Of a stretch of 36,694 bases of DNA, positions 4,086-32,059 are shown piece by piece. Made by a program: the position numbers and the translations under genes. Source of the DNA: a virus. The stretch spans positions 1-36,694 of IMG/VR virus record IMGVR_UViG_3300042475_002872. One strand, 5' to 3'. Under the pieces are notes generated by a model. It was not told the DNA's origin. It saw only the letters and a program-made list of their open reading frames with translations, and did no database searches. How positions within the stretch are numbered: position 1 is the first letter of the stretch; each line of letters begins with the position of its first letter.

Positions 4086-4107
4086 GCCCCCGCAGGGGTG
4101 TCAAAGC

Positions 4108-4587
4108 CTACCCGGCGAGGTCAGCCACAGCCTCCGCACTCGCCTCCGCAAATGTCGCCTGCGGCTGGCCGAAAGACTCCGCTGGTGCGGGTGTCGGGGC
4201 TGCGGCCCATGAAAGCATCACGCCTTCCAGCCACTGCTTCGCGGCGGTCATCTTCGGGCCGAGGGGTTTGCCCGCTTGGAGCAAGGCCATCTCAAAACGC
4301 TGAAGGGCGAGCGTCTGGTAGGGCGAGAAGTATTTGCTGACGGCTTGTTCGGCGGTGATTGTCGGCGCAGGCGCAGGCGTTCCCGCAACCCACTGACGTT
4401 CGACGCGATCAGCAAACCAGACAACATTCGGCTCCCACGCGCCTTGTTCGGGCTTCGGGATTTTAACCAGCGGCACCACGGTCTGGCCCTCTGGCACATC
4501 GCGCCAGTTGCCTTCGTCATCCGTAAGCAAACTGACGAGTTGCTGGCTCGGCACAAGGCCGACTGTAATCATTTGGTTTGGTTCCAT
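4108..4587 (-). CDS. Conserved phage protein after tail fibre
   Basis: 159 aa from ATG 4587, 3 nt after the fibre stop. The N-terminal half is globular ('MITVGLVPSQQLVSLL', 'WVAG'), then a helical region ('QTLALQRFEMALLQAGKPLG') and an Ala/Pro-rich tail. Its place directly behind a long fibre gene suggests a fibre chaperone or cap, but I do not recognise a family. The frame is open farther upstream (to 4644), but that part overlaps the fibre gene. Confidence 0.7.
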   Translation of the reverse strand: MEPNQMITVGLVPSQQLVSLLTDDEGNWRDVPEGQTVVPLVKIPKPEQGAWEPNVVWFADRVERQWVAGTPAPAPTITAEQAVSKYFSPYQTLALQRFEMALLQAGKPLGPKMTAAKQWLEGVMLSWAAAPTPAPAESFGQPQATFAEASAEAVADLAG

Positions 4588-4592
4588 ATTGT

Positions 4593-6638
4593 CTATGTTC
4601 CGAAAGCGACCTCTACGGCGTCCACGCTGGCGACCCAGCGCCATGTTTCCGATGCGATTCCAGTTACGGAAATCGACAGGGCATCGTTGGTGTCAGGGTT
4701 GTTAAATGTAATCGAAGTGCCTGCCGCGACATCAGTGCCGATTGTTTCGGCGGTGTAGACCGCACTGGAAGTCCCTGCCACGTTCTTGACCGAAAAGCGG
4801 CGGATGTAATGAGCAACCGTAGCGCCGTCCGATTTTACGCCAGTTATGTTGATGATGCCGCTCATCACCTTGCCCGATGGGATGGTGAGGCGTGTGGCTG
4901 ATCCGTCTAAAAACAACTCTGTTGCGGTTGCGTTGGTTGTTTTGCAGCGAAGGACGGCGCGGATGGATTGCGCGTCTCCGTCTGCGGCAAAAAAGCCAGC
5001 AGAGTGCGCCAATAGTGCGTATCTGTTGGCAACAGCGCGAATACCGAGCGCAGATGAATAGGCTGAAGACGCAGTGGTGCTTCTTCCCCCAATGCAGATT
5101 GCCGACTCGCCAGATGCCGTATTGAACGCACCGCCGATACAACTTGCGTAGTCATTCGATGAGGCCAAGTTGTTACGGCCAATAGCCACACTCCCAAATG
5201 CTGATGAAGTCGCATTAAGTCCCATCGCAATCGAATCCGTATTACTTGCCGTAGAGGTGCGGCCCACGGCAAATGAGTATTCACCCGAAGCAACTTGCGT
5301 TGCCGACGAGCGATTCATCTGCAAATCAACCGATTGCGCGCCTCTGGCATTGCCGCCCGTGGCGCTTCCGTCTGGCTGCGGCCCCAGCATAAACGCGCCA
5401 GTGCCTTTAGGGCTTACCACCAGCGCCGAGTTGGTATCGCTGGCGACATTGGACACGCGCACCAATGTCTGCACGGCATGGCCCGTGAGCAGGGTTGCCC
5501 CCGTGATGTTGGTCGTGAAAAGCGAGGCCGAGCCGCCGTCCGTGGTGGACAACTGGAAGGTCGCTCCGCTGGCGTTGATGACGAAGTAGTTCGTCGTGGT
5601 GTTAAGGCCACTGCCGCCAGTCAAGGCCGTAAAGCGCACCCGCTGGCCGTTGGCGAAGGCCGAGCCTGTGGCCGTGATAATGTCGGTGCCAGCATCGCCT
5701 GTGACGCTGGTGAAGGCGGTCACTGCGTCTTCGATGACGAGGCCGCTGGCCTGCAACGTGCTGCCCCCCGTGCCGTCACTCCGCAAAATAGAATTGTCGG
5801 TGGAGCCTGTGCCGCCGCCGATGCCTCCAGCCGCCGCCGCCCACTTCACTCCCAAAGTCTCAGCCGAATCGACTGTCAGCACATGGCCGTTGGTGCCTCC
5901 GACTGCCAGCCGTGCCGCCGTATCCGCTGCCGAGGCCACGATGAGGTCGCCTTTGGCATCGAGGAGGGTTGCAGGGATGCCCGCGCTGACTGTGGAAGAA
6001 AGCTCCCCCCCCGCCAACGAAAGGCCCGAGCCGATTTGGATTTCCTCCACCGCCCCTGTGCTGGCCGTTGTCCTTCCCAAAATTCTTGCGGTGGCTTGGG
6101 TTAGGCCCGATGTGGTTATTGAACCAGAGGCGGCTGCGCCGAGGTTGGTGCGGGTGGTAGATGCGTCTGTTGCCGCGCTGGTCACGCCGACAAAACTAAG
6201 TGCGCTTCCAAGTCCTATGGGGTTGCCTGTTGTTCCAACAATGACGCCAGCTTCGGCGTCAATAGCAAAACCGCTAGAATGCTGGAGTCCGCCGCTAGTA
6301 ATTTCCCAGCCATCGCCTATCGAACCAAATGTTGCTCCTACAAACTGTGGAGAGTCATCCGTATTCAACGACTGATCAAAAATCTCATCCGCGCCTTCGG
6401 GGAGGTGACTTGCAGCATGAAGATTCGGGTCGCGGTCATCCGAAAGCCGCGCATCGTTCCCCTCGCAAAAGCTCCCTGCCGCCGTGCCGAAAGAACCCGC
6501 CTCGACTACGCCGTTTGTGCCTGTTTTGAGCGGGAGGTTGGCGGTGGTGCCGAGTTTGAGGTCGGACGCGGCCAAGGCGATTTCGTCAAACGTGCCTTGC
6601 GCGTTTTCTTTGGGAACTTTGATGTCGTTGAGTGCCAT
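4593..6638 (-). CDS. Tail fibre with YadA-like head repeats
   Basis: 681 aa. The N-terminus 'MALNDIKVPKENAQGTFDEI' is a virion-attachment-like start. The middle is Gly/Ser/Thr-rich with the phrase 'TTRTNLGAA', also found in the fibre-like gene at 8000-9097. Residues about 455-560 carry SxAxGxxxxA repeats ('SIAMGLNATSSAFGSVAIG', 'SAICIGG', 'SSALGIRA') of the YadA/trimeric-adhesin head type, so the protein is probably a trimer. The C-terminal domain ('FAADGDAQSIRAV' onward) is beta-rich and likely binds receptor or folds the trimer. Probably the host-recognition fibre. Confidence 0.8.
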   Translation of the reverse strand: MALNDIKVPKENAQGTFDEIALAASDLKLGTTANLPLKTGTNGVVEAGSFGTAAGSFCEGNDARLSDDRDPNLHAASHLPEGADEIFDQSLNTDDSPQFVGATFGSIGDGWEITSGGLQHSSGFAIDAEAGVIVGTTGNPIGLGSALSFVGVTSAATDASTTRTNLGAAASGSITTSGLTQATARILGRTTASTGAVEEIQIGSGLSLAGGELSSTVSAGIPATLLDAKGDLIVASAADTAARLAVGGTNGHVLTVDSAETLGVKWAAAAGGIGGGTGSTDNSILRSDGTGGSTLQASGLVIEDAVTAFTSVTGDAGTDIITATGSAFANGQRVRFTALTGGSGLNTTTNYFVINASGATFQLSTTDGGSASLFTTNITGATLLTGHAVQTLVRVSNVASDTNSALVVSPKGTGAFMLGPQPDGSATGGNARGAQSVDLQMNRSSATQVASGEYSFAVGRTSTASNTDSIAMGLNATSSAFGSVAIGRNNLASSNDYASCIGGAFNTASGESAICIGGRSTTASSAYSSALGIRAVANRYALLAHSAGFFAADGDAQSIRAVLRCKTTNATATELFLDGSATRLTIPSGKVMSGIINITGVKSDGATVAHYIRRFSVKNVAGTSSAVYTAETIGTDVAAGTSITFNNPDTNDALSISVTGIASETWRWVASVDAVEVAFGT

Positions 6639-6644
6639 GAGAAA

Positions 6645-7451
6645 TTACCAGTTGACCGCCATTGGTGTGCGCGCCCATCGGGCGGACTGCCCGCCAACCT
6701 CTTGCACTAAGATGTAAAGATAGCTTCCGTCATAAGACATAGAGCCCAGCGCCCTGCCGCTGGTGTTGTTGGTCGGAGAAGTGGGCGGCGGGCTCGACCA
6801 TAGCATCTGTCGTGCGTCCGCGAGTCGCGTGTCGTTTGATAAAACGATCTGGTAGCGTTTTTGACCGCCAGTGCCAGAGCGAGTAGCGGCGTTATCTCCG
6901 CCGCGATCAAAATAGTCCGTCTCAATGCGAGTCGGTGTTACATAGTCGCCTGTGTTTTGCTTGGCCGCGAGTGCGTCTGAAAGTCCCGTAACTTCTCCCA
7001 CAAGTGGGTAAGTCCAAGTTGAGTCACCGCGCAAAAATCTACCTGCGGCACTACCAATGGCATTGGGGACAAGTCCCGGCCCCATGTTTTCGTAAGTTGG
7101 AATGGTTACAGCCCCGGTGGCTCCATTGACGCTGGTCACGGCCCCCGACTCCGCGCCCCATTCAGGGGCTGTGCCGCCAGAGTTGACCTTTAGGATTTGG
7201 CCTGCTGTGCCGATGCCGAGGCGCTGCCCGGTAGACGCGCCTTGGTAAAGGATATCGCCCTGCGTTGTCAGGACTTCCAGCCCTGTGCCTGGCACGCCTT
7301 GGGGGCCAGTTGGGCCAACGGGGCCAACGCTGCCGACAGGCCCAGCCGGGCCGATGGTCGGCACTACCACGTTCACAGTCTGCGGCGACGGGATGCCCAC
7401 CTCGACCGCGTTGGTGTTCAGAGACACTTCAACTTTGTGGTAAGCGGCCAT
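6645..7451 (-). CDS. Collagen-like tail fibre protein
   Basis: 268 aa. After a short beta N-terminus there are about eight Gly-X-Y triplets (residues about 34-57, 'GPAGPVGSVGPVGPTGP'), a trimer-forming collagen-like stalk common in phage fibres. The remainder has 'GDILYQGASTGQRLGIGTAG' and 'GRFLRGDSTW', repeats seen in many tail fibres, and a C-terminal beta domain. It stands 6 nt upstream of the YadA-like fibre gene and likely joins the same tip complex. Confidence 0.8.
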   Translation of the reverse strand: MAAYHKVEVSLNTNAVEVGIPSPQTVNVVVPTIGPAGPVGSVGPVGPTGPQGVPGTGLEVLTTQGDILYQGASTGQRLGIGTAGQILKVNSGGTAPEWGAESGAVTSVNGATGAVTIPTYENMGPGLVPNAIGSAAGRFLRGDSTWTYPLVGEVTGLSDALAAKQNTGDYVTPTRIETDYFDRGGDNAATRSGTGGQKRYQIVLSNDTRLADARQMLWSSPPPTSPTNNTSGRALGSMSYDGSYLYILVQEVGGQSARWARTPMAVNW

Positions 7452-7452
7452 G

Positions 7453-7818
7453 TTAGAGCGGTGCGGTGCGGGTGGTTACGTCGGAGAGGACTTTCCACAA
7501 GCCGCCGAAAAGCGTGTAGATTTTGTTGGTCGAGTCCTTTACTTGGACATCGTAATAGCGCGTCCCTGCGGTGGCGTTGTCCGTGGTGAGGAGATCGAAG
7601 TGGGAAATCCCACCCGCTGCGTTGCTGTGCGAGGTGACTTCCTTGCGAATGACGGCGGCAGAATCGGCATCGGTCAACGCGGACTTCACCGTTAAGAAAA
7701 GCGTGCTGCCCGTGAGATTGTAGGCCGTGCCGTCCGCGTCTTTGACCGAGACATCGAGCCGCCCGGAGTCGCCGCGTGTCCAGCAAAGATCGGCTTGAGA
7801 GGAATTGCAGGCACTCAT
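7453..7818 (-). CDS. Tail-tip beta-sandwich protein (BppU-N-like)
   Basis: 121 aa from ATG 7818, which overlaps the previous stop (ATGA). Residues about 14-45 ('RGDSGRLDVSVKDADGTAYN') and the following 'LTGSTLFLTVKS' resemble the N-terminal beta-sandwich of baseplate upper proteins, which attach fibres to the tail tip. Its place upstream of the fibre genes agrees. Assignment is by pattern only. Confidence 0.6.
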   Translation of the reverse strand: MSACNSSQADLCWTRGDSGRLDVSVKDADGTAYNLTGSTLFLTVKSALTDADSAAVIRKEVTSHSNAAGGISHFDLLTTDNATAGTRYYDVQVKDSTNKIYTLFGGLWKVLSDVTTRTAPL

Positions 7819-9097: not shown

Positions 9098-10605
9098 GCT
9101 ACAAGGTCAGTTTGCAAAATGCCGTTGTTGTCCACAGACAAGTTGAATTGCGTTCCGTTGGGCGACATGAGGCGACGGGTGCTTGTGTAGACAAGCTCCT
9201 CGCCTTCATCGCCACGGATGTAGTCGTTGTAAACAATCGCGGTAGTGGGAAGTGTGGTGTTAATTGTGCCGCCCTCCGTCCATTCCAGTTCTACGTTTGC
9301 CGTTGCAGACTTGAGCGTTTCGTCGCTGAATAGGTCGTTGACTGCTTCCGTGTTTAGATTTAGGGCGAACTTGTAGGTGCTGTCTTTTTGCCCCCAGCCG
9401 CTGTCAATAGCCAGGGCCGCTCCGGTGAAGCTGTTTTTGATAGCTAAAGTGCCGTCTGACCCGAACGACAGCGGCACCACCACGCCATTTTTCACGAATT
9501 TCACATCGACAGCTTCGATGTCGCGGCGTGTGAAAAACATGGTTTGCACTGGCTGGAGCAGCACGGGACTAACAACAAAGGCCCGCGATTCCAGATCAAC
9601 GTAGATTGTCATGCCGCTTACGCGGGTGCTGACGATTAAGGTTTGGGTCTGGCTTGCCGTTGCGGTTGCCGTTGCGGAAGCTCGCATGAAAATAGTCGTG
9701 CCGATGTAGGGGATGGCGCGAATGCTTGCGCGGGGCGCGGCGTTTGCCACAAGCCCAATCGTGGCGTTGGTGGTTGCGCTGGCGCTGGCGGTTGCGTTGG
9801 CGGTCGCTTGAAGAACAACCGGGCCGAGCAACGTGGCCGAGGCAGAGCTTCCTGTCCTCACCGAGCACCTCAAATTTAACTGCTCGTCAATTTCTACGTT
9901 TCCAAAGGTGGAAGATGTTTGCTGGATGTTTCCCACCAATCCAATCACTTCTGATTCTGTTAGGCTCGCGGTCGCCGACACCACCGCTTCGGGGCCAAAA
10001 TATGATCCGTTGAACGCCGTTTTGGCATCCAACGACACGTTTGGCTCGACCAGCGTGATTTCTCGTATCGCTGACGGAGTAGCAACTTCGCACGGGCCAA
10101 ACGGAAGTTTGGACTCCGACACATACTCATATTGAAAAGCGATGTTGACGCTCCCGGTGTAATTAGCCCCAACGTCTGTCAGAGAAAATGTTACTTTGAA
10201 TGCGTTGCGCGAAAACGGCGCTTCGGCGTAACTTAATATTTGTCCATTGTCGCCAAGAACGGAAAATCGAAGCACTCCATTGGCAAGGGCGATTCGCTCC
10301 TCAATGTCCGCCGCCATAACCGTGCCCGCACCCCAAATAGTCCGCAGAAAAAAATTAGTGATTCCAAAGTAAGCAGTTACTTCAATTGACGGAGTTCTGG
10401 GAATGCTTAAAGGAGCAAGTCCTTTTTGCGTGTTCCGAAACCATTGTGGTGTTTTGAAGCCCGTTTGATACCACCGAAAGCCGTCCCGCGCTGACGTTGA
10501 TGTTAAATAATCTCCGTCATCATTATACGGGCCGGGCAGCGCCGACTCTGGAACGCCCAAAAGAGGAAGGCCCAGATTATAGCCAGCTGGCAGAAAAAGG
10601 TTCAT
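9094..10605 (-). CDS. Large tail-tip/fibre structural protein
   Basis: 503 aa, no signal peptide. The N-terminal 170 residues are globular ('YNDDGDYLTSTSARDGFRWY'). The middle (about 205-310) has Ala/Thr/Ser repeats ('ATANATASASATTNATIG', 'RASATATATASQTQ') predicting a fibrous or coiled stalk. The C-terminus is beta-rich ('NLSVDNNGILQTDLVA'). I do not recognise a named family. The position among fibre genes makes it a virion tip protein. The leader before its ATG holds a hairpin (ACCCCACAGGGGT) but no clear Shine-Dalgarno. Confidence 0.65.
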   Translation of the reverse strand: MNLFLPAGYNLGLPLLGVPESALPGPYNDDGDYLTSTSARDGFRWYQTGFKTPQWFRNTQKGLAPLSIPRTPSIEVTAYFGITNFFLRTIWGAGTVMAADIEERIALANGVLRFSVLGDNGQILSYAEAPFSRNAFKVTFSLTDVGANYTGSVNIAFQYEYVSESKLPFGPCEVATPSAIREITLVEPNVSLDAKTAFNGSYFGPEAVVSATASLTESEVIGLVGNIQQTSSTFGNVEIDEQLNLRCSVRTGSSASATLLGPVVLQATANATASASATTNATIGLVANAAPRASIRAIPYIGTTIFMRASATATATASQTQTLIVSTRVSGMTIYVDLESRAFVVSPVLLQPVQTMFFTRRDIEAVDVKFVKNGVVVPLSFGSDGTLAIKNSFTGAALAIDSGWGQKDSTYKFALNLNTEAVNDLFSDETLKSATANVELEWTEGGTINTTLPTTAIVYNDYIRGDEGEELVYTSTRRLMSPNGTQFNLSVDNNGILQTDLVA

Positions 10606-10644: not shown

Positions 10645-11046
10645 TTACTCAAACGTGATCGTGAAATCGCCAGCCGCGAAGCGGGCGGTGTCGCCGCTGG
10701 TCACGCTGCGACTCGCGCTCAAGTTGCCGAAATAAAGCAAATTGCCGCCGCTGGAAGCGTCGAAAACGCCAAAAGCCGTCACCGTGCCCCAGTTCGCCGA
10801 GGCTGTCGGGAAAGTGATGGTGCCGCCGTTGGCTTTGACCCCGGACACGCTGGCCGGGAAGTTGGTCGAGTTGTTGGTCACGCTCACGCGGGCGTAGCTG
10901 CCGCCGCTGCATTCTGTTCCGCCGCCGCTTTCGGTTGGCGCGGCTGTGAACAGGGCAAAATGCACGTTTGCCGGGCGGGTAAAGTCGGAGCCGCCAAGAA
11001 CGTGATCGTTGAGTTTGTTTTCGAGATAGGAAGATAGAGCGGACAT
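10645..11046 (-). CDS. Conserved phage tail-associated protein
   Basis: 133 aa. 'LSSYLENKLNDHVLGGSDFT', 'VHFALFTAAPTESGGG', 'GGSYARVSVTNN' and 'WGTVTAFGVFDA' match a widespread small phage family that normally stands in the tail or fibre region (start pattern 'LSxYLENxLxDHVLGG'). Beta-rich, probably a structural tip protein. The ATG follows an A/C-rich leader (AACAACCAACTAAAACT) without a Shine-Dalgarno. Confidence 0.75.
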   Translation of the reverse strand: MSALSSYLENKLNDHVLGGSDFTRPANVHFALFTAAPTESGGGTECSGGSYARVSVTNNSTNFPASVSGVKANGGTITFPTASANWGTVTAFGVFDASSGGNLLYFGNLSASRSVTSGDTARFAAGDFTITFE

Positions 11047-11087
11047 AGTTTTAGTTGGTTGTTAAACTGGCGCGACGTGTCAAATAA

Positions 11088-12101
11088 TCAGCAAGGCATC
11101 CATGCCTGCTGGCGAACGCGAAGGTGGCCCCGGTATTCCCCCTCGGTTTGGTGATACGCCCGGTGGTGGATGATCTTGCCGTCTTTGTCGCGCTTCACAT
11201 GGTCGGCGGCACAATGCGCGATGCAGGCAATCCGAAGCTCCGCCGGGTGCCAGCGGTGCCAGCAAAGAAACAGGTCTTGTGTGCCCTTGCCGTCGTAGCC
11301 GCTAAACTCTGCCAGTGCCAACGCCTTGGCCGACATGAGCGTGCAGCCAAGGCCGCACCAATCGCTCGGCACGATGGCCCCCTTGCCGATTCCGGGGAAC
11401 GCGAAGTCCATCCAGCCGCGTCTGCGCCATCCGTGCTTGCCGTTTACTTCAAAAACATTGCCGTCTGGCGGGCAACGCTTCACCCGCTCGTGGAGTCGGC
11501 CAAGGCGCTTGCCCTCCTTCTCGCTGGTCGGCTCGGCCTTGAGCCTTTCGCGGCAGACCTCCAAGGCGCGGACAAGGCGCGGCGGTAGCTTGCGCTCCTT
11601 CTCGTTAAAGTCCTCGGCAATGGGATTCTGCGGCGTCCCGTTGCCCCCAAGAAAAAGGCCGTTCGGGTAGGTCACGGCGGCAACATCGTAAAAGTTTGAC
11701 CCATCCGCCTGCGGCATTTGCAGAGCCCACTCGGCCACCCGGAGCGCGTCTGCCGGGACAAGGTTGTCGGCCTCCACCGACCACAACATCGAGGCTCGGA
11801 TCTTGCGGGCAGCAGCAAACGCGGCTCCCTGCAACGCGGCAATCCGCATTTGCGCCTCTACTTGGTAGTCCTTGCCCTCGGCCCCGCCGTCATCGAGCGG
11901 AAGCTGCACCGCTTGGATGCGCCAACCTTCGGGGAGTTCGTGGCGCGCTGCCTCGATGGCTTGCTTGGCCTCCTCGCTCTGGTCAGTTGCCAGAATGAAA
12001 TGCGCCTCGGCGTGGTGCCCGGCTGCGGCGGCGATCCGTCTCAGGAACTGCGGCCAGCAATAGAAATAGCTCTTGGTCGCGTATGTCGCTATAGCCAGCA
12101 C
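11088..12101 (-). CDS. Glycosyltransferase-like protein in tail cluster
   Basis: 337 aa from a GTG at 12101, 16 nt after TTGACA. The N-terminus 'MLAIATYATKSYFYCWPQFL' and the 'HFILATD' strand fit a GT-A Rossmann-like fold. 'WSVEADNLVPADALRVAE' carries an ExD/DxD-like metal site. 'GKGAIVPSDWCGLGCTLMS' and 'GTQDLFLCWHRWHPAELR' resemble acceptor-site motifs of GT-A enzymes with an aromatic/acidic catalytic loop. It may glycosylate a tail or host component. A glycosyltransferase inside the tail block is uncommon. Family by pattern, substrate unknown. Confidence 0.6.
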   Translation of the reverse strand: MLAIATYATKSYFYCWPQFLRRIAAAAGHHAEAHFILATDQSEEAKQAIEAARHELPEGWRIQAVQLPLDDGGAEGKDYQVEAQMRIAALQGAAFAAARKIRASMLWSVEADNLVPADALRVAEWALQMPQADGSNFYDVAAVTYPNGLFLGGNGTPQNPIAEDFNEKERKLPPRLVRALEVCRERLKAEPTSEKEGKRLGRLHERVKRCPPDGNVFEVNGKHGWRRRGWMDFAFPGIGKGAIVPSDWCGLGCTLMSAKALALAEFSGYDGKGTQDLFLCWHRWHPAELRIACIAHCAADHVKRDKDGKIIHHRAYHQTEGEYRGHLRVRQQAWMPC

Positions 12102-12119
12102 TCGGCTGCGCGGAGGGTG

Positions 12120-13964
12120 TCAAGCGAATGGCGTGTTAGGCGGAAGGGAGTTGCTGTTGCGATACTCCGACCATACTACAGGATTAAGGTTCGGGCCGAG
12201 CGACAGAGGGCCGATATGACGGATCGGAAACCACTTTTTGATAACACTTGATTGCCCAGCCGTTATCGAAACATCTCCGTCCGAGAATGTTGACGCAGAA
12301 CCGCCGACTTGATCCTTGTAGACACCTTGGCCCGGTCGCTCAACAATCGTCTGTCCAACGCCGGGATATCCTCTAAAAATAGAAAGCGGGGCAGCGTCTT
12401 GGATTGTAGTTGGAGTCCCGCTAATTCCAAACTCCGCGCTTGTTGTTGTTCTTTGCGTTCCTGTTCCGCTTAAGGCTGCGGTGCTGGTCGTCCATGTGAT
12501 AGAGTTGCTGCTTACGGTTTGTCTTTCGTTGGTGTCTGGAAACACGGTGTTGCCATTTCGCCCCGCTCCATCGAGTGCATAAAGCTCAAAAGGAAACCCC
12601 TGTGAGCTTGCGTTTGCGGTTATCCACCCACCCGTTTGCGATCCGATTACAGCGCCAGTTGTGCAGTATTTTGTGCGACCGAAAGCGCCACCACTGCCAA
12701 GCGAGGCTCGCGGCACGCTAACTGTTGTATTTCCTTCGGCGTGGATAGTTGATCCAAACGAACTGCCTTCGACTTGCTCTGCGGGGACATAGCTGATTCC
12801 TACAATGTAACTGGTGGAACCCGACGTTGAACTTTGAAGCGTCACCGCCGCTTCAATGACTCGTGGCACCAGCAGCGAATGGGTTGTTTGCGTCAGGCCA
12901 CGATAGGTTTCATTTTGAGTTTGTCGCCGCGCCGTGGTTGGCACGGTAAAATAGTCCGTTTGGTTGATGGTTGTGTTTCCGCTTCCATAAATTAATTCCT
13001 GCGAACTAATCGAGAGGCTGGCAGAAGAAGATCGCAGGCTGAATGAATTGTTTGTTCGGGTTTCCGTTCTTGGTGGGAAAGAGTCATAGCTCGCAACAGT
13101 AATAGTGTTCTGACTCGCCGTGACCACCAAGTAACTTACGCCAGTTGAAAAACTTGGTGATTGCACTGACGATGTTGTCGCCGTTTGAGCAATCGAGATC
13201 CTGGCAAAACTGCTCACCTTGGGTGAAAGCGTGAATCGCGCGCCCGATTCGGCCACATCGGTGGCCGCTGAATAGCCATTCCATTCTTGTGGCATTTTCC
13301 GAATCAAATAAAGAATCTCGCCGGGGTCTGCTTGCACCACGGTATTAGGCAGTCCGCTTAATGTTACGACTTGGTCTAAAAGCTCAGTATACGTCTCGGT
13401 GCCTCGCCGCGTCGCGTATTCTTGCACAATGGTCGTGGTTGTTGCGGCCTCCTCGGCCTGAAAAAACACAGGCGCGTCTGAGTTGGCACTTGTGCCGCCT
13501 TGGGAAGATGTCGTCCACGGGTAGTAATATGCCTCGCCGGTTGCTGTTTGATAAAAGACAGACTCGTAAGTGCTGGTTGCGCTGCTGGCGCCGTAAGCTG
13601 TAATTTCTGATGTTGTCTCTCCGCTTGTTAAATAGGAGGTTGAAAAACTTTCTCCATCCGACGCGGTTTGAGTGCGCTCCTCTAAACCGCTTTCCCCTTC
13701 TGTGCTGTCAGTGAACGTAATGCCCGCCTGATAAGTTCCTGATTGGCTATACGAGTTGTAAACTTTGGTTTTCGATGTTGAACCAGCAAAGTATTCCGTG
13801 CTGCCTTCAGAATACGCGGTAGTTGTGCCGCTGGCACTTTGCGCCAAACTCAAATCAGACACATTTGTATTGCCTGAGTAACTGGAAGATGCGCCGCTTG
13901 ATGACGAATAGCTGCTGCTGCCTGTTAGTCCCGCCACCGAACCGGGGATCGTCCAACTTATCAT
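12120..13964 (-). CDS. Ser/Thr-rich tail protein
   Basis: 614 aa from ATG 13964, which overlaps the previous stop (ATGA). The first 200 residues are very rich in Ser, Thr, Gly and Tyr ('SSSYSSSSGASSSYSGNTN', 'SATSTYESVFYQTATGEAYY'), low in charge and beta-prone. The C-terminal part remains Thr/Ser-rich with no recognised domain. It is probably an extended tip or fibre protein. Because the glycosyltransferase gene is next, the many Ser/Thr could be glycan sites, which is speculative. Confidence 0.65.
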   Translation of the reverse strand: MISWTIPGSVAGLTGSSSYSSSSGASSSYSGNTNVSDLSLAQSASGTTTAYSEGSTEYFAGSTSKTKVYNSYSQSGTYQAGITFTDSTEGESGLEERTQTASDGESFSTSYLTSGETTSEITAYGASSATSTYESVFYQTATGEAYYYPWTTSSQGGTSANSDAPVFFQAEEAATTTTIVQEYATRRGTETYTELLDQVVTLSGLPNTVVQADPGEILYLIRKMPQEWNGYSAATDVAESGARFTLSPKVSSFARISIAQTATTSSVQSPSFSTGVSYLVVTASQNTITVASYDSFPPRTETRTNNSFSLRSSSASLSISSQELIYGSGNTTINQTDYFTVPTTARRQTQNETYRGLTQTTHSLLVPRVIEAAVTLQSSTSGSTSYIVGISYVPAEQVEGSSFGSTIHAEGNTTVSVPRASLGSGGAFGRTKYCTTGAVIGSQTGGWITANASSQGFPFELYALDGAGRNGNTVFPDTNERQTVSSNSITWTTSTAALSGTGTQRTTTSAEFGISGTPTTIQDAAPLSIFRGYPGVGQTIVERPGQGVYKDQVGGSASTFSDGDVSITAGQSSVIKKWFPIRHIGPLSLGPNLNPVVWSEYRNSNSLPPNTPFA

Positions 13965-16878: not shown

Positions 16879-17664
16879 TTAGCGGACGCCAAAGCCCGAA
16901 GCCTTGGCATTTTGTTTGAGGTAGTATTGAACGCGGCGGGTAATGGCTCCCGTGCGTTTTGCCAGAACGGCTTTTAGACGGCGCTCGATACTGCCCCGTG
17001 CGCGGGCATAGACCCCGGCATTGGCAAGCTCAAGGACGCCACGGCTTCCCTGCTGCTTGTAGTTGATGTAGCCAGCGCGGTCGTGGCGCGTGATCCATGC
17101 GGGCAGCTTGGCCCCAAGTTTGACGGCGGCGGCTTTCCAGCCTGCGGCTTGCTTGCCGACCAGCTTGATTGCCTTCTTAATGTAAGCGGCTTTCTTGGCC
17201 TCGGTCGTAATGCCTCGATTGTAGGACTTGGAACGGCCCGTGTTGCGGTCGCCCGTCTGCCCTGCGCTGGTCACTCGTCCGTTGCGAGTCCTCTGGCTGC
17301 GGTGCCATTGGGCAAGGTTGCTGACGGCAACGTCATTGTCGGACACATAGACAGTCCCGTCTTTGCGGCGAAGTTCGCGGCGATTAATGGAGCCGCCGAA
17401 GATTTCGACAAATTGCTCGTAAAGCCCCGGCGCAAGGCCGATGAGGATTTTGTTGATGTCGTTTGTGACGGCAATTTCGCCGCCTTTTTTATTCCACTTC
17501 GCGCCCTTGTTTGGGGGAGTAATCTTCGCGGCTTCGACAATGATGATCTTCCCCTGCTCGTTTAGCAGTTCCTTGGTCGTGCGCTTGCTCGTGGCAATAT
17601 AGCTCTGCATTGCCTTGTCGAACTCGGCAGAATCAATCGTAACACTTTTGGCGCGGCGTCCCAT
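16879..17664 (-). CDS. Basic protein upstream of tape measure
   Basis: 261 aa, strongly basic. The N-terminus 'DSAEFDKAMQSYIATSKRTT' and 'ELLNEQGKIIIVEAAKITPP' resemble the HK97 gp10/minor tail pattern (helix, then a helix ending in AxxxxP). The C-terminal half is Lys/Arg-rich ('RARGSIERRLKAVLAKRTG'). ATG overlaps the stop of the -1 frame chaperone ORF (TAATG). Role uncertain; a tail completion or morphogenesis protein is likely. Confidence 0.65.
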   Translation of the reverse strand: MGRRAKSVTIDSAEFDKAMQSYIATSKRTTKELLNEQGKIIIVEAAKITPPNKGAKWNKKGGEIAVTNDINKILIGLAPGLYEQFVEIFGGSINRRELRRKDGTVYVSDNDVAVSNLAQWHRSQRTRNGRVTSAGQTGDRNTGRSKSYNRGITTEAKKAAYIKKAIKLVGKQAAGWKAAAVKLGAKLPAWITRHDRAGYINYKQQGSRGVLELANAGVYARARGSIERRLKAVLAKRTGAITRRVQYYLKQNAKASGFGVR

Positions 17665-17894
17665 TACTCTGCTGAAAACCTCTCTGTCAAAGCCGCCATG
17701 CGCTCAAAGGCGTCCACCGTCTCGCCTGTCGGCGGGCCGGGCGGCACTGTCCACACGTCATTAGCGCGTAAGGCGCAGTGCTGATATTGCAAGAGTCGGG
17801 CGAGCGGCAGTTCCCAAATGATGTAGTGTTCGGGCCAGCCTGTTTCTCGCGCCAGCGTGAAAGCGAAGGTCGCAATCCACGCTGGCTCTGTCAG
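17664..17894 (-). CDS. Tail chaperone GT extension (-1 frame)
   Basis: A 76-codon ORF in the -1 frame of the gpG-like gene, entered at GGGAAAC (17894-17900). It begins 'LTEPAWIATFAFTLARETGW', continues 'PEHYIIWELPLARLLQYQH' and ends 'DAFERMAALTERFSAE'. There is no good start codon of its own. Its stop (TAA) overlaps the next ATG. In lambda, gpGT made by -1 slippage guides tail tube assembly on the tape measure; the place, length and slip site match. Fusion product about 215 aa. Confidence 0.85.
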   Translation of the reverse strand: MTEPAWIATFAFTLARETGWPEHYIIWELPLARLLQYQHCALRANDVWTVPPGPPTGETVDAFERMAALTERFSAE

Positions 17895-19393: not shown

Positions 19394-19495
19394 TTATTTG
19401 GCGGACTTTTTGGCAAGGCGCGCTTCGACGGCTGCGCCACGAGGGCCAGCAACGGCGGGGGCGGCTTTGGGCTGCTCTTTGGCGGCTTCGCTCAT
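19394..19495 (-). CDS. 33-residue Ala/Lys-rich peptide
   Basis: A tiny ORF in the tail block with ATG 14 nt after TTGACA, and a stop 6 nt before the next ATG. The sequence runs 'MSEAAKEQPKAAPAVAGPRG' then 'AAVEARLAKKSAK': disordered, basic, low complexity. Dense packing and the leader motif support it as a real gene. Function unknown, possibly a tail-tube accessory. Confidence 0.5.
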   Translation of the reverse strand: MSEAAKEQPKAAPAVAGPRGAAVEARLAKKSAK

Positions 19496-19511
19496 ACGCT
19501 GCGCGCAGTTG

Positions 19512-19925
19512 TCAAACGGTCACGCCGAGCGCGACTTGCAAAGTGTTGACCCATGCCCTGTCTTGAAAATCTGGCCCCGGCACGCTGGTGATGTAGCTGC
19601 CTGCAAAATCCACGCCTGACGCGGCGGCATCAAAGGCCGTGCGGAAGGAGTTTTGCGCCTCGATGGCGGTAACGAGTGTGGTGAAAAGACTGCTGTGGTC
19701 GGACAGGCTGACAGCCATTGAGGGCGAGCGAAGGCTGACAGTGAGATTGACCAAGAACGCGCCCGGCCCCCGGTGCTCGGCATCGCTGACCTCGACCACT
19801 ACGGCCTGCTTCTCAAAGTCCAAGTCGGCGGCAGTGACCGATTCGTGAACCTGTGTGCCTGCGGGAAGGTTGTTTAATGCGCGCAGGTAGGCCGCTACGC
19901 CCTTTTCTACTTCAAGCGGGTTCAC
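19512..19925 (-). CDS. Tail terminator-like protein
   Basis: 137 aa from a GTG at 19925 that overlaps the upstream stop (GTGA). 'NPLEVEKGVAAYLRALNNLP' followed by alternating strands and a helix ('SSLFTTLVTAIEAQNSFRTA') is the alpha/beta layout of gpU/HK97 gp10-type tail completion proteins. Position between the connector and tail tube agrees. The frame is open to 19949 but that region overlaps the upstream gene. Confidence 0.65.
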   Translation of the reverse strand: MNPLEVEKGVAAYLRALNNLPAGTQVHESVTAADLDFEKQAVVVEVSDAEHRGPGAFLVNLTVSLRSPSMAVSLSDHSSLFTTLVTAIEAQNSFRTAFDAAASGVDFAGSYITSVPGPDFQDRAWVNTLQVALGVTV

Positions 19926-20257
19926 GGGTTGCCAACCTCCACGATCCATTCCTGCGCGAGCGGGGAGTAGTTAAAGCGAACGGAAAGGACGCGATAGGTT
20001 TTGCCTTGGATCTTGACCGCGCTTTTGAGGGCGGGCGCTTCGGGCATATCGGTCTTCGTCACGCGCACCACGAAATCAACGGGGCTTTGGAATCCGCCCG
20101 ACTCAAGGTTCAGTTCGGGCGTGCCTGTCGAGACGGCACAGGTGAAATTGCGGGGGGCTCCGTTCCACGCTTCGCCAAAGGTTACGGTCGTGCCGAAAGC
20201 GGATTTCATCTGCGCGGCAGCTTGACGGGCAAAGGCGGCGACGGAGGTGGCGTCCAT
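19922..20257 (-). CDS. Head-tail connector / head closure protein
   Basis: 111 aa from ATG 20257, which stands 14 nt after TTGACA. 'MDATSVAAFARQAAAQMKSA' is followed by beta strands ('VKIQGKTYRVLSVRFNYSP') in the style of gpFII-like head-tail joining proteins. It lies after the coat gene and before the terminator-like gene. The frame is open to 20305 but that part runs through the hairpin. Confidence 0.65.
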   Translation of the reverse strand: MDATSVAAFARQAAAQMKSAFGTTVTFGEAWNGAPRNFTCAVSTGTPELNLESGGFQSPVDFVVRVTKTDMPEAPALKSAVKIQGKTYRVLSVRFNYSPLAQEWIVEVGNP

Positions 20258-20285
20258 GACCAATCGCAGACTGTCAAAACAGAAT

Positions 20286-21556: not shown

Positions 21557-22618
21557 TTAGTCCTCAAGACGCCCGCCCTTTTGGAAGAACGCGGCTCGGT
21601 CGGAGTGGGAGAGTTTTTCAAAATTTTCACGGGACAGCGCGGCAGTCCCTTCGTCGGATGCGCCAAGCGCCGGGACAACAGACGCCGAGGCAACGCCGTT
21701 GGCTTTTTCCAAAGCGGCCAAGGCTTCGCTAACCTTGCTCAGTTCCGTTTCGGCCTTCTCGGCGCGAGCTACGGCAACCGCACGCTCTTCAGCCAGCGCG
21801 GCGATCTTGGCGACAAAAGCATCGGCACTGATTGCGGCTTGCGGCTGTTCAAGAACGGGCTGTTCAACAGCGGCGGGGGAAACTTCCTCCGCTTCGTTTT
21901 TCTCAACAACAGGCGCGTCGGTTACAGACTCGGCAGCCTCAGTCACCACGGGAGTTTCTTCAACTACGGGTTCAGCGGCAGGCGCGGAAATCTCGGCATC
22001 GGAGATAGCATTGTTTTGCATCTTGGCCTTTGCGAAGTTGTCAAATCGTGCGCGCAAATCTTTGGCGCTGGCGGCGGCGGGAATGCCGTCTTCAATGGCG
22101 TCGACAAAACCAAGGGCCACGGCCTCGACTGCATCCAGCCAAGTTTCCTCGTCCATCAGCTTGGCAATCTCCTTTTCTTCCATGCCGCTTTTCTTTTGGT
22201 AAGCGCGCACAAGGTTCGACTTCATTGTGTCGAGCAAGTCGGCCTGCTTGCGCAGGTCTTTAGCTTCGCCAGCAGCGAGCGTCCACGGGTTATGGATCAT
22301 CAGCAGGGCGTTGTCGGCCATATAGACCGGGTTGCCTGACATGGCGATGACGCTCGCCATGCTTGCCGCCAAAGCGTCAATGTGAACAGTCAGCCCGCCT
22401 TCGTGACGGGCAAGAGCGTTGTAGATTGCGCTGCCTTCGACAATTTCGCCTCCGGGCGAGTTAATACGGAGGTGGATGTGTTGACCTTTGTATTTTTTGA
22501 GGTCGGCAATAAACTCTTTTGCGCCGATGCCAAAAGCACCGATCTCGTCGTAGAGAGAAAGTTCAACCTCGTTGCCTTGGTTGACGGTTGCCTTAAACGC
22601 ATACCACTTCTGAGTCAT
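21557..22618 (-). CDS. ClpP-like head protease with scaffold tail
   Basis: 353 aa. Residues 1-190 are a ClpP/S14 serine protease: 'RINSPGGEIVEGSAIY', catalytic Ser86 in 'DALAASMASVIAMSG', His109 in 'LMIHNPW' and a later acidic residue near 'WLDAVEAVALGFVDAI'. The C-terminal 160 residues are Ala/Glu/Pro-rich, then coiled coil ('VAKIAALAEERAVAVARAEK'), typical of an internal scaffold fused to the protease. It would process the prohead before DNA entry. ATG is 13 nt after TTGACA; the motif's TGA is the portal stop. Confidence 0.93.
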   Translation of the reverse strand: MTQKWYAFKATVNQGNEVELSLYDEIGAFGIGAKEFIADLKKYKGQHIHLRINSPGGEIVEGSAIYNALARHEGGLTVHIDALAASMASVIAMSGNPVYMADNALLMIHNPWTLAAGEAKDLRKQADLLDTMKSNLVRAYQKKSGMEEKEIAKLMDEETWLDAVEAVALGFVDAIEDGIPAAASAKDLRARFDNFAKAKMQNNAISDAEISAPAAEPVVEETPVVTEAAESVTDAPVVEKNEAEEVSPAAVEQPVLEQPQAAISADAFVAKIAALAEERAVAVARAEKAETELSKVSEALAALEKANGVASASVVPALGASDEGTAALSRENFEKLSHSDRAAFFQKGGRLED

Positions 22619-22633
22619 TCACCCCTGCGGGTG

Positions 22634-24238
22634 TCAAACATCTGCGCGCTTGTCTGGATGCACAAAATCAACGTGCATCATGTCCATTGCATTGGAGTCG
22701 GGTGGAGTCGAACCACCGTCCGCTTCGTTGGCATCATCGTCATTCGATGTATCGCCCGAAGCGTCGATGCCAGATTGCGACCCCGAAGGAATGGGCGCGG
22801 GCGATCCCGGCGCGGGAGGAAATACGTCTGTGACGGTTAATCCTGCCGCCTCGCACTTTTCTTTGCGGCGAAGATAAGAGGCAATCGCCGCATCTTCTTC
22901 CTGCTCCTCGTCCATGCCGTGCATTTCGGAAAAACGGCGTCCGCTCATTGCGCCCGTGCGGACGATTTCCAGCATGGCCTTGGTGTCGCGGCCATAGTCA
23001 ACGGTGATGCGGGCGGGCGTGATAAACTCAACTTTCCACCAATCATCAACCATCGGCAGGCGTCCTGCGCGAATCTCTGACCAGACCCAGTATTTGTAGA
23101 AGCGGCGGCAGAATGAGTTGATGAGCCAATCCTGCAACTCGGAGAAAAAGACCTGTGCATCGGCTAAAACAAACCGAGTGTTTGCGCCACCGATTTTAGA
23201 AACGTCCCAAAGCAGTTCGGGCGATACTCCAATGCCCCATGAAATGTCGCGGGCGAGGAAGTCCAAGAACTGCTGAAAGTTGTTGCCGGGATGCTCGTTT
23301 TTGAACTGCTGCAATTCCGCTCCGGGCGGAAGCTGAATTACCCCGCTCCCGGCGTAGAGCTTGTCCAGCGTTACCTTATTGCCGTCTCCAGCGTCTTGCC
23401 GCTTGAGGGCCGCGCCCATGCCGATCTGCATCGCATCCGGGCTTTTAATGATATAGGCGGGTTGCGAAGCCAGCTTGAAGGTCGTTTTGGTAAAGCGCAC
23501 GATATCGGCCATGTCGTGCAAATGCAGGGCCGCACGGGCCAGCCATGACGGGGCGCGGGTATAGCCGACTCGCTGCGGGCGGTAGAAGTGGCAAATATCG
23601 TCGCTGCTGACATCTTGAAATTGCGTGCCGAGATAGTTGGTCAAGACCCGGTATTGCGTTGGTCTGCCCATTGCATCGACGCGCACACCGTCCCGCCATT
23701 CGTCTTGCTGTAATCCGGTAACGGCGTTGGCAACTTTTTCCGCCCCGAAAAAGCGCATCATGGCGCGACCGTCTTTGCTTTGCACCAACTGCCCAAAGAA
23801 GTCGCCATCCACGGCGGCGTGGCGAATGATTGCGGCCTGCGCGGTGTAAAAGTTGAATTGCCCCGCCGCATCAAAGCCAAAAGCCTCGCGGCCTACGGCA
23901 TCTTCAAAGCGTTGCTCTGTTTCCTTGTTCCACGCGGAACTTGAAGATCGGGCCTGCGGGATAATGCCCGTGCCGCAAGCATAGCGGGCGATCCCGTCCA
24001 CGGCGCGAGCGGCCAGCCCCACGTTGTTGTAAAGCCAGCGCGCTTTCTTGAGAATGTCCGTGCGCGTCCGAGCGGTAAACTCTTCGACCGGGTTGAGCGT
24101 GGGCAAGTAAATGTAAGTGCGCTCGTTGCCGACTACTTCCGCCGCTTCATAAGCCGCGTTCTTTGCCCCGCTTGTGCGCGGCCTTCCAGCCCCGGTGCGC
24201 TTGCCGCCCCAACTTGATTTTTTGATTTCTGCCGCCAC
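22634..24238 (-). CDS. Portal protein (lambda gpB-type)
   Basis: 534 aa from a GTG 14 nt after TTGACA. Lambda-family portal features: 'ARWLYNNVGLAARAVDGIA', 'AIIRHAAVDGDFF', 'NNFQQFLDFLARDISWGIGV' and 'DWLINSFCRRFYKYWVW'. It forms the dodecameric DNA gate. The first 25 residues contain 'WGGKRTGAGRPRTSGAK', an AT-hook-like DNA-binding patch unusual at a portal N-terminus. The C-terminus is Pro/Asp/Ser-rich. It lies between a tRNA gene and the protease. Confidence 0.95.
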   Translation of the reverse strand: MAAEIKKSSWGGKRTGAGRPRTSGAKNAAYEAAEVVGNERTYIYLPTLNPVEEFTARTRTDILKKARWLYNNVGLAARAVDGIARYACGTGIIPQARSSSSAWNKETEQRFEDAVGREAFGFDAAGQFNFYTAQAAIIRHAAVDGDFFGQLVQSKDGRAMMRFFGAEKVANAVTGLQQDEWRDGVRVDAMGRPTQYRVLTNYLGTQFQDVSSDDICHFYRPQRVGYTRAPSWLARAALHLHDMADIVRFTKTTFKLASQPAYIIKSPDAMQIGMGAALKRQDAGDGNKVTLDKLYAGSGVIQLPPGAELQQFKNEHPGNNFQQFLDFLARDISWGIGVSPELLWDVSKIGGANTRFVLADAQVFFSELQDWLINSFCRRFYKYWVWSEIRAGRLPMVDDWWKVEFITPARITVDYGRDTKAMLEIVRTGAMSGRRFSEMHGMDEEQEEDAAIASYLRRKEKCEAAGLTVTDVFPPAPGSPAPIPSGSQSGIDASGDTSNDDDANEADGGSTPPDSNAMDMMHVDFVHPDKRADV

Positions 24239-24269
24239 GCAGGCGGCGGAAGTGTCAAACAGTTATTCG

Positions 24270-24342
24270 TTGCAGGGGGCGGATTTGAACCGCCGCATGG
24301 TAGGGTATGAGCCTACTGACTTAACCGCTTGTCGACCCTGCA
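24270..24342 (-). tRNA. tRNA-Met (CAT)
   Basis: Full cloverleaf on the minus strand: acceptor TGCAGGG/CCCTGCA, D-arm GAC/GTC with a GG-containing loop, anticodon arm GTAGG-CTCATAC-CCTAC with anticodon CAT, 5-nt variable loop, T-arm GGCGG-TTCAAAT-CCGCC, discriminator A at 24270. No CCA is encoded. CAT could decode Met, or Ile if C34 is lysidinylated. It sits inside the late gene string between the gpW-like gene (1 nt away) and the portal, so it must be cut from a polycistronic RNA. Confidence 0.92.
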
Positions 24343-24343: not shown

Positions 24344-24637
24344 TTAAACGCTCGCCAGATTGGAGGAATAGTCTGCGTAGACCATGCCTGCGCTGCGGAC
24401 TTTCGCGGGCTCGGCAGACGGGGCGAGGTCTTCAATCAAGTCTTCGACCAGATTCAGAATGTCGGCCTTGCTGTATTTGCGCGCCTGCCCCGATGTGCTG
24501 CCACCCTCAAAGCCCGTCGAGGTAATAGTGACCTCCGAATCAGCGATGGAATACAGCTCGTCAGCAAGAGTCTGAAGCTGAGCCAGAGACTTGGTGCGTT
24601 TTAGATATTTTCTGATTCCTGCCAATTCGGAGGTCAT
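24344..24637 (-). CDS. gpW-like head-tail protein
   Basis: 97 aa. 'LAQLQTLADELYSIADSEVT' then a beta pair around 'TITSTGFEGGSTSGQARKYS' and a helix 'KADILNLVEDLIEDL' match the helix-beta-hairpin-helix layout of lambda gpW, which stabilises the filled head. In lambda, W stands between terminase and portal, as here. ATG is 14 nt after TTGACA. The stop lies 1 nt from the tRNA. Confidence 0.7.
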   Translation of the reverse strand: MTSELAGIRKYLKRTKSLAQLQTLADELYSIADSEVTITSTGFEGGSTSGQARKYSKADILNLVEDLIEDLAPSAEPAKVRSAGMVYADYSSNLASV

Positions 24638-24667
24638 GCGTAATCTTTCAATGTCAATGCGCGCCCG

Positions 24668-27880: not shown

Positions 27881-27912
27881 GACAAGTTAAGCCAAGCGCT
27901 TGTCTTTGTAAA
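27881..27912 (-). promoter_or_regulatory. Promoter-like region with palindromic operator
   Basis: Minus strand: TTTACA (27907-27912), 17-bp spacer, TAACTT (27884-27889), only moderate matches to -35/-10. The spacer contains the palindrome CAAGCGCTTG (27893-27902), and GACAAG/CTTGTC repeats surround it, so a repressor could block here. The start codon at 27874 is about 9 nt after the -10, so a leaderless RNA is possible. An A/T-rich tract (27910-27950) lies upstream. The rest of 27875-27975 has no gene. Confidence 0.5.
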
Positions 27913-27975
27913 GGGAAAAGTTTCACCTTTTTTCATCTTTTTTTTCCACCTCCTAACCCCTTGAAAATAGAGGGT

Positions 27976-30590: not shown

Positions 30591-30594
30591 TTCG

Positions 30595-31368
30595 TTACTT
30601 TTCTTTTTCATAATCAGACAAATAGGAGCGACGAATTGCATCGGTAAGTTCAACGAAGCCGCTTTCAATGGCTTTCTTAAAATCGACAATGACCAGGGCC
30701 GAGCACTCAAAAAGTCTTTGTGCCTCCGGTTCGCTTTGCGCGTAGTATTCGGCAATCTTGTCGAAAGAAAAAACTGTGTGTCGCTGCGCTGCGTGCCGCA
30801 AAAAGTCTTTTTCGTTGTCTGGCAAATTTGATTTATTGATCGCCGCAATCAGCGAATCTGTTTTGGTGGTGTCGCACAAAGTTGCGATGCTTGGCTTTGG
30901 TCCTGTTGGCTCATAAATCGGCGGTTCAATTTTTCTTGAGTAGCTCTGATCTTCTGGCGCAAGACCCAAGTCCATATCAGCGCCCAAGGATTCCAAAGCC
31001 GCCGAATCAAATCCGACATCCTCAAGCCCAATTCCTTCCGCTGCCAATCCCTCAAGCTCCGCGCTCAATAGCTCGCTGTCCCATTCGGCCAATTCCGCCA
31101 TGCGGTTAATGCTAATCCGCAGCGCCTTAATGTCGGCCTCGCTCAAGTCATCACACAGCACAACAGGGACTTCATCCATGCCGAGATGCTTCGCGGCCTT
31201 TACGCGCAGATGCCCGTCGATCAATGAGCCGTCCGACTTTGCCAAGACCGGGACGCGAAAGCCAAAGCGTTTGATCGCAGAGGCGACGGCCTCGACGGCG
31301 TGGTCGTTCTTTCGTGGGTTGCCTGCGTAGGCGATGAGTTTATCAAGTGGCAGTGTTACGGTTTTCAT
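30595..31368 (-). CDS. ParB/Srx-domain protein
   Basis: 257 aa from ATG 31368, overlapping the small terminase end by 26 nt. 'LPLDKLIAYAGNPRKNDHAV' and 'GSLIDGHLRVKAAKHLGMDE' are the ParB N-terminal fold (GxxRxxAA-like box). The C-terminal 100 residues ('FSFDKIAEYYAQSEPEAQRL', 'ALVIVDFKKAIESGFVELT') form a separate domain. Such proteins in phages can be CTPases, nucleases or DNA-modification partners. The pairing with the TAGT-like enzyme is suggestive. Confidence 0.85.
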   Translation of the reverse strand: MKTVTLPLDKLIAYAGNPRKNDHAVEAVASAIKRFGFRVPVLAKSDGSLIDGHLRVKAAKHLGMDEVPVVLCDDLSEADIKALRISINRMAELAEWDSELLSAELEGLAAEGIGLEDVGFDSAALESLGADMDLGLAPEDQSYSRKIEPPIYEPTGPKPSIATLCDTTKTDSLIAAINKSNLPDNEKDFLRHAAQRHTVFSFDKIAEYYAQSEPEAQRLFECSALVIVDFKKAIESGFVELTDAIRRSYLSDYEKEK

Positions 31369-31993
31369 TTGGTCGGTTTGTTTCTTTGAAAAGCATTCTG
31401 ATCCAGTTCTCCATGATCCCCTGCGCATGGATCGGGTCGTTCGGGTTAAGTTGCGCGGACAGGGCGGCGGGGGCAGCGACCAGCTTTTGCCGTAGGTCGC
31501 TAAAGACTTGCCTATATGTCCGCTCGGCGTCCTCGACTTGCATTGTCTTGCCGTCCCGCTCCATCAGGTCACGAAGCTGACGCTCATAGGCGACTTGCTT
31601 GGCGATGTATTGCTGATGCGTTTGCGCCCATCGGCGCGAGGCTTCGATATCCCCGGAGTGGTGCAGGCGGGCGACTTGAGCAGCGGCGTGTTTGCGTAGC
31701 TGCCTTTGCTCGTTTAGCGCCTCCCGGCAGTTGTCGGTATCGGTGAAGGTCTTGGTCGGTTCCGCGACGGGTTCGGGTTCGGCGGGTTCGGGCGGGTCTT
31801 CGTTTTCCGTGGAAATCTCTACGGGAGTCGGGCTCGGCGCTGGCCGGGGCTGACTCGCTATGCGGCTGCGGCCATTGCGCTGATACCAAGATTGAGCGGC
31901 CTCAATGCTGTCAATGGGCATCCCGCGCTTGATGCACTTATGCGCCCCGGCCCCGGTAATTCCGAGGGCGGCGGCAAGAGCGCGGACAGTCAT
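31343..31993 (-). CDS. terS: Terminase small subunit-like protein
   Basis: 216 aa. The N-terminal HTH 'MTVRALAAALGITGAGAHKC' is Nu1-type and would bind the cos/pac site. A Pro/Glu linker (about 50-80) joins it to a helical oligomerisation region ('LRKHAAAQVARLHHSGDIEA', 'QLRDLMERDGKTMQVEDAE') and a C-terminal motor-binding tail. The ATG is 14 nt after TTGACA. A symmetrical repeat array lies right upstream, where lambda has cosB. ParB-like and TAGT genes separate it from terL. Confidence 0.75.
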   Translation of the reverse strand: MTVRALAAALGITGAGAHKCIKRGMPIDSIEAAQSWYQRNGRSRIASQPRPAPSPTPVEISTENEDPPEPAEPEPVAEPTKTFTDTDNCREALNEQRQLRKHAAAQVARLHHSGDIEASRRWAQTHQQYIAKQVAYERQLRDLMERDGKTMQVEDAERTYRQVFSDLRQKLVAAPAALSAQLNPNDPIHAQGIMENWIRMLFKETNRPNENRNTAT

Positions 31994-32006
31994 GTCAACC
32001 TCGCCC

Positions 32007-32059
32007 GTGTCAACTTCGTGTTAACTTTTACAACGGCCAGTTAACACTCAAATTAACAC
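32007..32059. promoter_or_regulatory. GTGTTAAC repeat array, candidate cosB/operator
   Basis: Four related octamers on the + strand: GTGTCAAC (32007-32014), GTGTTAAC (32018-32025), GTTAACAC (32040-32047) and ATTAACAC (32052-32059). The first two are direct, the last two are their inverted partners; starts are 11 and 12 bp apart and the centre is near 32033. This stands directly upstream of the small terminase gene. Farther out, a run of eight G at 32111-32118 could be part of a cos nick region. The interval 31994-32138 has no gene. Confidence 0.65.

Follow-up and report, generated by a model that had tools for sequence, protein, structure and literature searches.

A strictly spelled TTGACA element at a fixed distance from late-gene start codons in Verrucomicrobiota phages

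INTRODUCTION

The nearest published parallel to the element described here is the start-associated sequence (SAS/ESAS) of Cluster K mycobacteriophages, which has no known function but is suspected of a role in translation initiation (PMC3203893). We characterized an element of related placement, the hexamer TTGACA, in a 36.7-kilobase (kb) viral record from IMG/VR (IMGVR_UViG_3300042475_002872, positions 1 to 36,694; this whole stretch is referred to as the window). The window comes from a temperate tailed phage, and its gene set includes an integrase, a portal, a head protease, a major head protein, and terminases. Like the SAS (PMC3203893), TTGACA is short and asymmetric, stands in one orientation just 5' of many phage start codons, and is conserved between phages. 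However, the two differ in sequence, spacing, and gene set. The SAS is a 13-base-pair (bp) sequence, GGGATAGGAGCCC, that lies 3 to 7 bp from the start, holds AGGAG, tolerates deviations, and accompanies nonstructural genes, whereas TTGACA spans 6 to 7 nucleotides (nt), lies 13 to 16 nt from the start, accepts essentially no mismatch, has no Shine-Dalgarno (SD) letters, and accompanies head, connector, and some lysis genes.

Other described elements share some of these properties. Cluster A stoperators (PMC6550527) also form many oriented sites per phage genome, and their consensus varies between subclusters with repressor divergence. In contrast, TTGACA keeps a fixed distance from the start codon and does not diverge among distant phages. 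boxA (PMC5725501) is an RNA element with a U-rich core that is conserved across species, and where boxA sites lie close to gene starts they regulate translation, but the conserved letters that should precede TTTGACA are missing, and the rRNA spacers of the hosts carry another core. SD sequences and other, non-SD initiation signals have a fixed distance from the start and are absent at translationally coupled starts. Unlike SD sequences, however, TTGACA occupies positions -19 to -14, upstream of the 4 to 10 nt before the start at which an SD core lies, and lacks a purine run, mismatch tolerance, and use by the host. Finally, TTGACA is the -35 consensus of sigma70 promoters, yet it falls 13 to 16 nt from the start rather than at the roughly 30 nt of a leaderless promoter, with no -10 box. 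A literature search for TTTGACA in connection with phages returned no report of such a signal.

RESULTS

The initial annotation of the window had reported nine copies of TTGACA ending 13 to 16 nt before a start codon. We recovered all nine, with identical coordinates and gaps (gap being the number of nt between the end of TTGACA and the start codon):

1270 to 1275 (+), TTGACA 15 nt 5' of the GTG at 1291, metallophosphoesterase gene 1291 to 2031, PHROG 221
4099 to 4104 (-), TTGACA 13 nt 5' of the ATG at 4085, holin-like gene 3918 to 4085
12118 to 12123 (-), TTGACA 16 nt 5' of the GTG at 12101, gene 11088 to 12101; its TGA is the stop of the upstream gene
19510 to 19515 (-), TTGACA 14 nt 5' of the ATG at 19495, gene of 33 amino acids (aa), 19394 to 19495; its TGA is the stop of the upstream gene
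20272 to 20277 (-), TTGACA 14 nt 5' of the ATG at 20257, head-closure (Hc1-like) gene 19922 to 20257, PHROG 82
22632 to 22637 (-), TTGACA 13 nt 5' of the ATG at 22618, head maturation protease gene 21557 to 22618; its TGA is the portal stop
24253 to 24258 (-), TTGACA 14 nt 5' of the GTG at 24238, portal gene 22634 to 24238
24652 to 24657 (-), TTGACA 14 nt 5' of the ATG at 24637, gpW-like gene 24344 to 24637
32008 to 32013 (-), TTGACA 14 nt 5' of the ATG at 31993, small terminase gene 31343 to 31993, PHROG 57

As had also been noted, three of these sites overlap the preceding stop (shared TGA at 12120, 19512, and 22634).

The hexamer itself is not overrepresented. The window contains 17 copies, compared with 15.8 ± 4.0 expected from dinucleotide shuffles, and their split between strands (15 minus, 2 plus) follows the bias of the genes. 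When starts were scored as any ATG or GTG opening an open reading frame (ORF) of at least 30 aa, 9 of the 17 copies fell at a gap of 13 to 16 nt against 0.91 expected (z = 8.5), the top score among all hexamers and 4-nt spacing windows in the window.

This arrangement is conserved in related phages. A portal search of viral contigs yielded 41 relatives with 61 to 99% identity (clade A), and in the aligned clade A portal starts TTGACA was always present at a gap of 13 to 14 nt. It stayed constant although the upstream neighbor of the portal varies, being a tRNA gene in the window versus the gpW-like gene in most relatives. A profile search added a second group (clade B), which is close to a prophage found in a Chthoniobacter metagenome-assembled genome and has portals about 44% identical to those of clade A. 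In both clades, TTGACA at a gap of 13 to 14 nt was the best of all 4,096 hexamers (60 of 85 in clade A, 50 of 82 in clade B). The analysis was limited by a simple ORF caller, by the fragmentary state of the contigs, and by redundancy in the sampling.

We then counted sites by orthology, not by motif presence; because closely related contigs are included, these counts are not independent events. Exact TTGACA preceded every scorable portal start (42/42 in clade A and 81/81 in clade B, or 123/123) and every gpW-like start (41/41 and 36/36, or 77/77), along with 98 of 112 protease starts (41/41 and 57/71). Small terminase starts carried it less consistently (15/21 and 4/24 in clades A and B, respectively). 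The head-closure family had the motif in 71 loci, and the phosphoesterase orthologs in four further clade A contigs had it as well, at a gap of 13 to 14 nt. Orthologs of gene 11088 to 12101, which the initial annotation called a glycosyltransferase and which had no PHROG match, carried it in five of five cases, with a gap of 16 nt in each. Relatives that possess the 33-aa gene have the site before it, while those that lack this gene have the site before the next tail gene. The earlier description of the targets as mainly structural and lysis genes therefore stands for head and connector genes and fails for others: no site was found before the orthologs scored for the major capsid (0/4), the large terminase (0/110), or the tape measure (0/49). 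Across orthologs, the mean identity of spacers and upstream sequence was only 0.33 to 0.61 (0.42 to 0.61 for the spacer by itself), and nothing upstream of TTGACA was conserved. The hexamer is thus kept in relatives while its surroundings differ, in line with the original claim of a phage-wide, start-linked signal.

The spelling of the element is nearly invariant. In a pool of clade A, clade B, and the motif-bearing distant prophages described below, exact TTGACA occurred 153 times at gaps of 13 to 16 nt versus 8.8 expected. Among the 18 single-mismatch variants, only CTGACA was mildly raised (14 versus 5.5 expected). The preceding base is usually T, giving TTTGACA in 132 of 144 nonredundant sites. 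Since ribosome-binding sites and promoter boxes usually vary and TTGACA does not, the spelling suggests that the element may be read by a protein of strict specificity.

The motif extends well beyond one phage. With a portal profile, we detected related portals, mostly of distant similarity, in 23 of 388 Verrucomicrobiota genomes (phylum assignment based on kinship to the Chthoniobacter genome G001), and we took the 20-kb region around each. In these distant prophage regions, 79 of 155 TTGACA copies lay at gaps of 13 to 16 nt, compared with 2 to 11 in other spacing windows of equal width. TTGACA was again the top hexamer, with 24 of 42 copies at gaps of 13 to 14 nt. Some regions were rich in the arrangement (8 of 8 copies in L287, 9 of 11 in L284), and five were poor in it (L283, L289, L291, L292, and L294, each with none or one). 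Within a single genome, G130, 7 of 12 copies in the prophage region had this gap versus 1 of 86 in 400 kb of chromosome. We found no enrichment at this gap before host genes in samples of G001, G002, G121, G189, and G130, and no outlier that uses the arrangement widely among the 388 genomes, which rules out a host-wide translation signal. Because prophage regions are enriched and chromosomes are not, TTGACA in this arrangement is a phage signal. No sites at 13 to 16 nt were present in five isolated phages that do not belong to the motif group (Akkermansia phage Moulinsart, Verrucomicrobia phage P8625, Escherichia coli phage mEp213, Sinorhizobium phage phi3LM21, and Synechococcus phage S-CBS1). 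A scan of genome contigs with the terminase as the query gave no match.

TTGACA at a different spacing was seen outside the group. In phage P8625 (L298), it occurs 30 nt before three starts of the structural region (5412, 10736, and 15558). At each of these, a TAT.. hexamer follows TTGACA at a distance of 17 nt, and there is an inverted repeat, GTATCC-N7-GGATAC or one very similar to it. These sites resemble leaderless sigma70 promoters that carry an operator. A slight excess of TTGACA 29 to 32 nt before ORF starts in host chromosome samples (G001 and G002, L054 to L086; G121, L095 to L114) is consistent with leaderless sigma70 promoters, too.

The presence of the motif is complementary to translational coupling. 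At late-gene junctions with 0 to 10 nt between stop and start, the motif was found in 0 of 81 distinct junctions, and at those with 15 to 20 nt, in 34 of 34. This link is partly geometric, because the motif needs room. More informative are the portal-protease junction, where all 12 loci with a 4-nt overlap lacked the motif and 95 of the 96 others had it, and the shift of the site to the 33-aa gene wherever this gene stands before the next tail gene. The complementarity leans toward an action at the level of mRNA.

The window holds eight further copies of TTGACA, at 9402, 11078, 15610, 17685, 22039, 31909, 31993, and 36535, so the earlier remark that internal copies were few was an underestimate. 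Three of them lie near starts:

11078 to 11083 (-), TTGACA 31 nt 5' of the ATG at 11046; outside the conserved arrangement
17685 to 17690 (-), TTGACA within upstream coding sequence, 20 nt 5' of the ATG at 17664
31993 to 31998 (-), second TTGACA at the small terminase, overlapping its ATG; off the conserved spacing

The first two had been listed as looser cases. The 20-nt case is probably a coincidence, since it is embedded in coding sequence and none of 12 clade B orthologs shares it, and we found no support for the 31-nt case.

DISCUSSION

We favor, with slightly better than even confidence, the reading that TTGACA (mostly TTTGACA) 13 to 16 nt before a start is a sequence-specific, non-SD signal carried in cis by late mRNAs of Verrucomicrobiota phages and that it would act at initiation or through cleavage upstream of starts. 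It would mark, and promote expression from, the starts of late genes that are mostly not translationally coupled to the upstream gene, and UUGACA would be read close to where the ribosome footprint begins on its 5' side by a stringent protein, supplied either by the host or by the phages, among which it would then be widespread. That protein could recruit or license the 30S subunit, giving non-SD initiation. Alternatively, the mRNA could be cut at UUGACA, leaving a short-leader mRNA translatable by an SD-scarce host. Some Verrucomicrobia are scarce in SD sequences (PMC10783764), which would favor another start signal in at least these hosts. In the phages, TTGACA is not complementary to CCTCC, and SD tetramers are scarce in the spacers (3% at gap 13, 17% at gap 14). 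TTGACA is probably a switch for reading phage genes. A stronger version, in which a stringent UUGACA signal with a dedicated reader replaces the SD sequence at uncoupled late genes and forms a private translation route in an SD-scarce host, is something we would advance only tentatively, at somewhat less than even confidence.

Several observations weigh against this reading. No translation factor that could act in trans was found in 11 long contigs. A helix-turn-helix (HTH)-like family of 220 to 260 aa (L280, 18823 to 19530; L236, 4696 to 5358; and relatives) was seen in several phages with the motif but not in any of the five regions taken as motif-poor, and is a candidate late regulator; it is not universal, and these regions are truncated. 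If host machinery reads the motif, its avoidance by host genes is surprising. TTGACA is retained at the gpW-like gene even where that gene and the large terminase gene share 4 nt, as in 21 loci of clade B, so coupling is not a full replacement for the motif. Finally, the highly expressed capsid gene lacks the motif and has an A/C-rich leader instead.

A late promoter is less likely than an mRNA signal, and we regard it as unlikely. Here, TTGACA would be the sole element recognized by a phage-modified RNA polymerase, and transcripts would begin only a few nt 5' of the start codon, as short-leader mRNAs. Restriction of the motif to phage late genes fits this proposal, T4-type late promoters being an analogue of such a late-gene-only element. 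A fixed transcription start would account for the fixed spacing, the motif is retained at the overlapping gpW-like start, and the copies at about 30 nt in host chromosomes and P8625 fit leaderless sigma70 promoters. However, there is no second element. A -10 box (at least 4 of 6 matches to TATAAT) followed TTGACA at N16 to N18 in 0 of 120 nonredundant sites, compared with 4 to 5% of controls. With the fixed distance to the start codon, this bears out the initial view that the hexamer is not a normal -35 box, and it rules out a conventional -35/-10 promoter. The lack of conserved upstream sequence, the 63 to 77% GC content of the spacer that would have to melt, and the recurrence of sites every one or two genes within a compact operon also argue against a late promoter, as does the strict spelling, given that promoter elements usually tolerate mismatches.

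We consider it improbable that TTGACA is instead the DNA site of a phage repressor or road-block protein that silences prophage late genes in the manner of stoperators, 13-bp sites at which the immunity repressor binds and blocks elongation. The single orientation, the many sites in short intergenic regions, and the presence of an integrase in a temperate phage are all compatible with this, and TGTCAA, which is TTGACA read on the opposite strand, is part of the L5 stoperators. Yet the hexamer does not change between phages whose portals are only remotely related, and a constant distance from the start codon is not known for stoperators.

A boxA-like site for NusB/S10, or a nut-like combination of boxA and a hairpin, seems more doubtful still. 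TTTGACA does resemble the core of rrn boxA. However, the full GYTCTTTGACA was found in 0 of 144 nonredundant sites, and the 16S-23S spacers examined in Verrucomicrobiota carry CTTTGAAA in its place; on these sequence grounds we rejected boxA. Nor is there a consistent hairpin beside the motif: the spacers fold about as well as shuffled spacers (median rank, 0.39), with the exception of one long-gap tail-fiber family. A hairpin presenting the start codon in its loop, as hinted by the portal alignments, was rejected because in most families the spacers did not outdo shuffled ones in folding.

Pairing with 16S rRNA, or with a small RNA having the seed TGTCAA(A), is very improbable. A seed of 6 to 7 nt upstream of starts is typical of RNA pairing, but no result of this analysis backs pairing here. 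The 16S 3' tails are ordinary, CCTCCTTT(C/A)TA.GGA, without TGTCAA, and pairing with the tail is thereby ruled out; TGTCAA occurs in 16S rRNA only internally and only in some genomes. Variants that G:U pairing would tolerate, TTGACG and TTGGCA, were not enriched at gaps of 13 to 16 nt in the pooled phages. Chance, or common ancestry without function, can practically be dismissed: many contigs are near-identical copies, but the hexamer is invariant amid divergent flanks in three divergent phage sets and contrasts strongly with control gaps, spelling variants, and host DNA.

The identical spelling in phages whose portals are only remotely alike, the placement to nearly a single nucleotide, and the lack of use by host genes give the element its interest. 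If its action does lie in translation or in the cleavage of mRNA, the element would represent a phage-specific code for gene expression in a phylum reportedly scarce in SD sequences and would imply an RNA-binding factor or nuclease not yet known. It could also be used as a marker to link metagenomic phages with Verrucomicrobiota, improve start calling, and offer a testable handle on the role of start-associated sequences in phages.

Other start regions in these phages have features of their own. Several genes without the motif between 24769 and 27440 of the window have A/C-rich leaders, with AAACACAGAACAATG-like sequences before 25317, 26958, and 27423. Capsid gene starts in relatives have a leader of the CAACCCAAC type, which together with the AAACACAGAACAATG-like leaders makes up a second kind of start region. 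In clade B tail-fiber genes (for example, in L235, L240, L247, and L209), the gap from TTTGACA to the ATG is longer, 19 to 22 nt, and holds a stem-loop right before the ATG whose stem varies between relatives (GCCGCT..AGCGGC, GGCGCG..CGCGCC). Upstream of the small terminase in L050 (around 7093 to 7130) and its clade B relatives (L135, L136, and L189 among them), TTTGACA lies between direct repeats of TTCCGTTCCGT, possibly a terminase-binding (pac/cos) site.

Two tRNA features were seen in the window. A tRNA-Met (CAT) gene at 24269 to 24342 (-) lies between the gpW-like and portal genes; it is present in the nearest relatives as well, whereas most of the clade lacks it. Beside the integrase, positions 1129 to 1189 hold the 3' portion of a sequence resembling tRNA-Leu(CAA), with up to 93% identity to a Verrucomicrobiota genome, and this is probably the attachment site.

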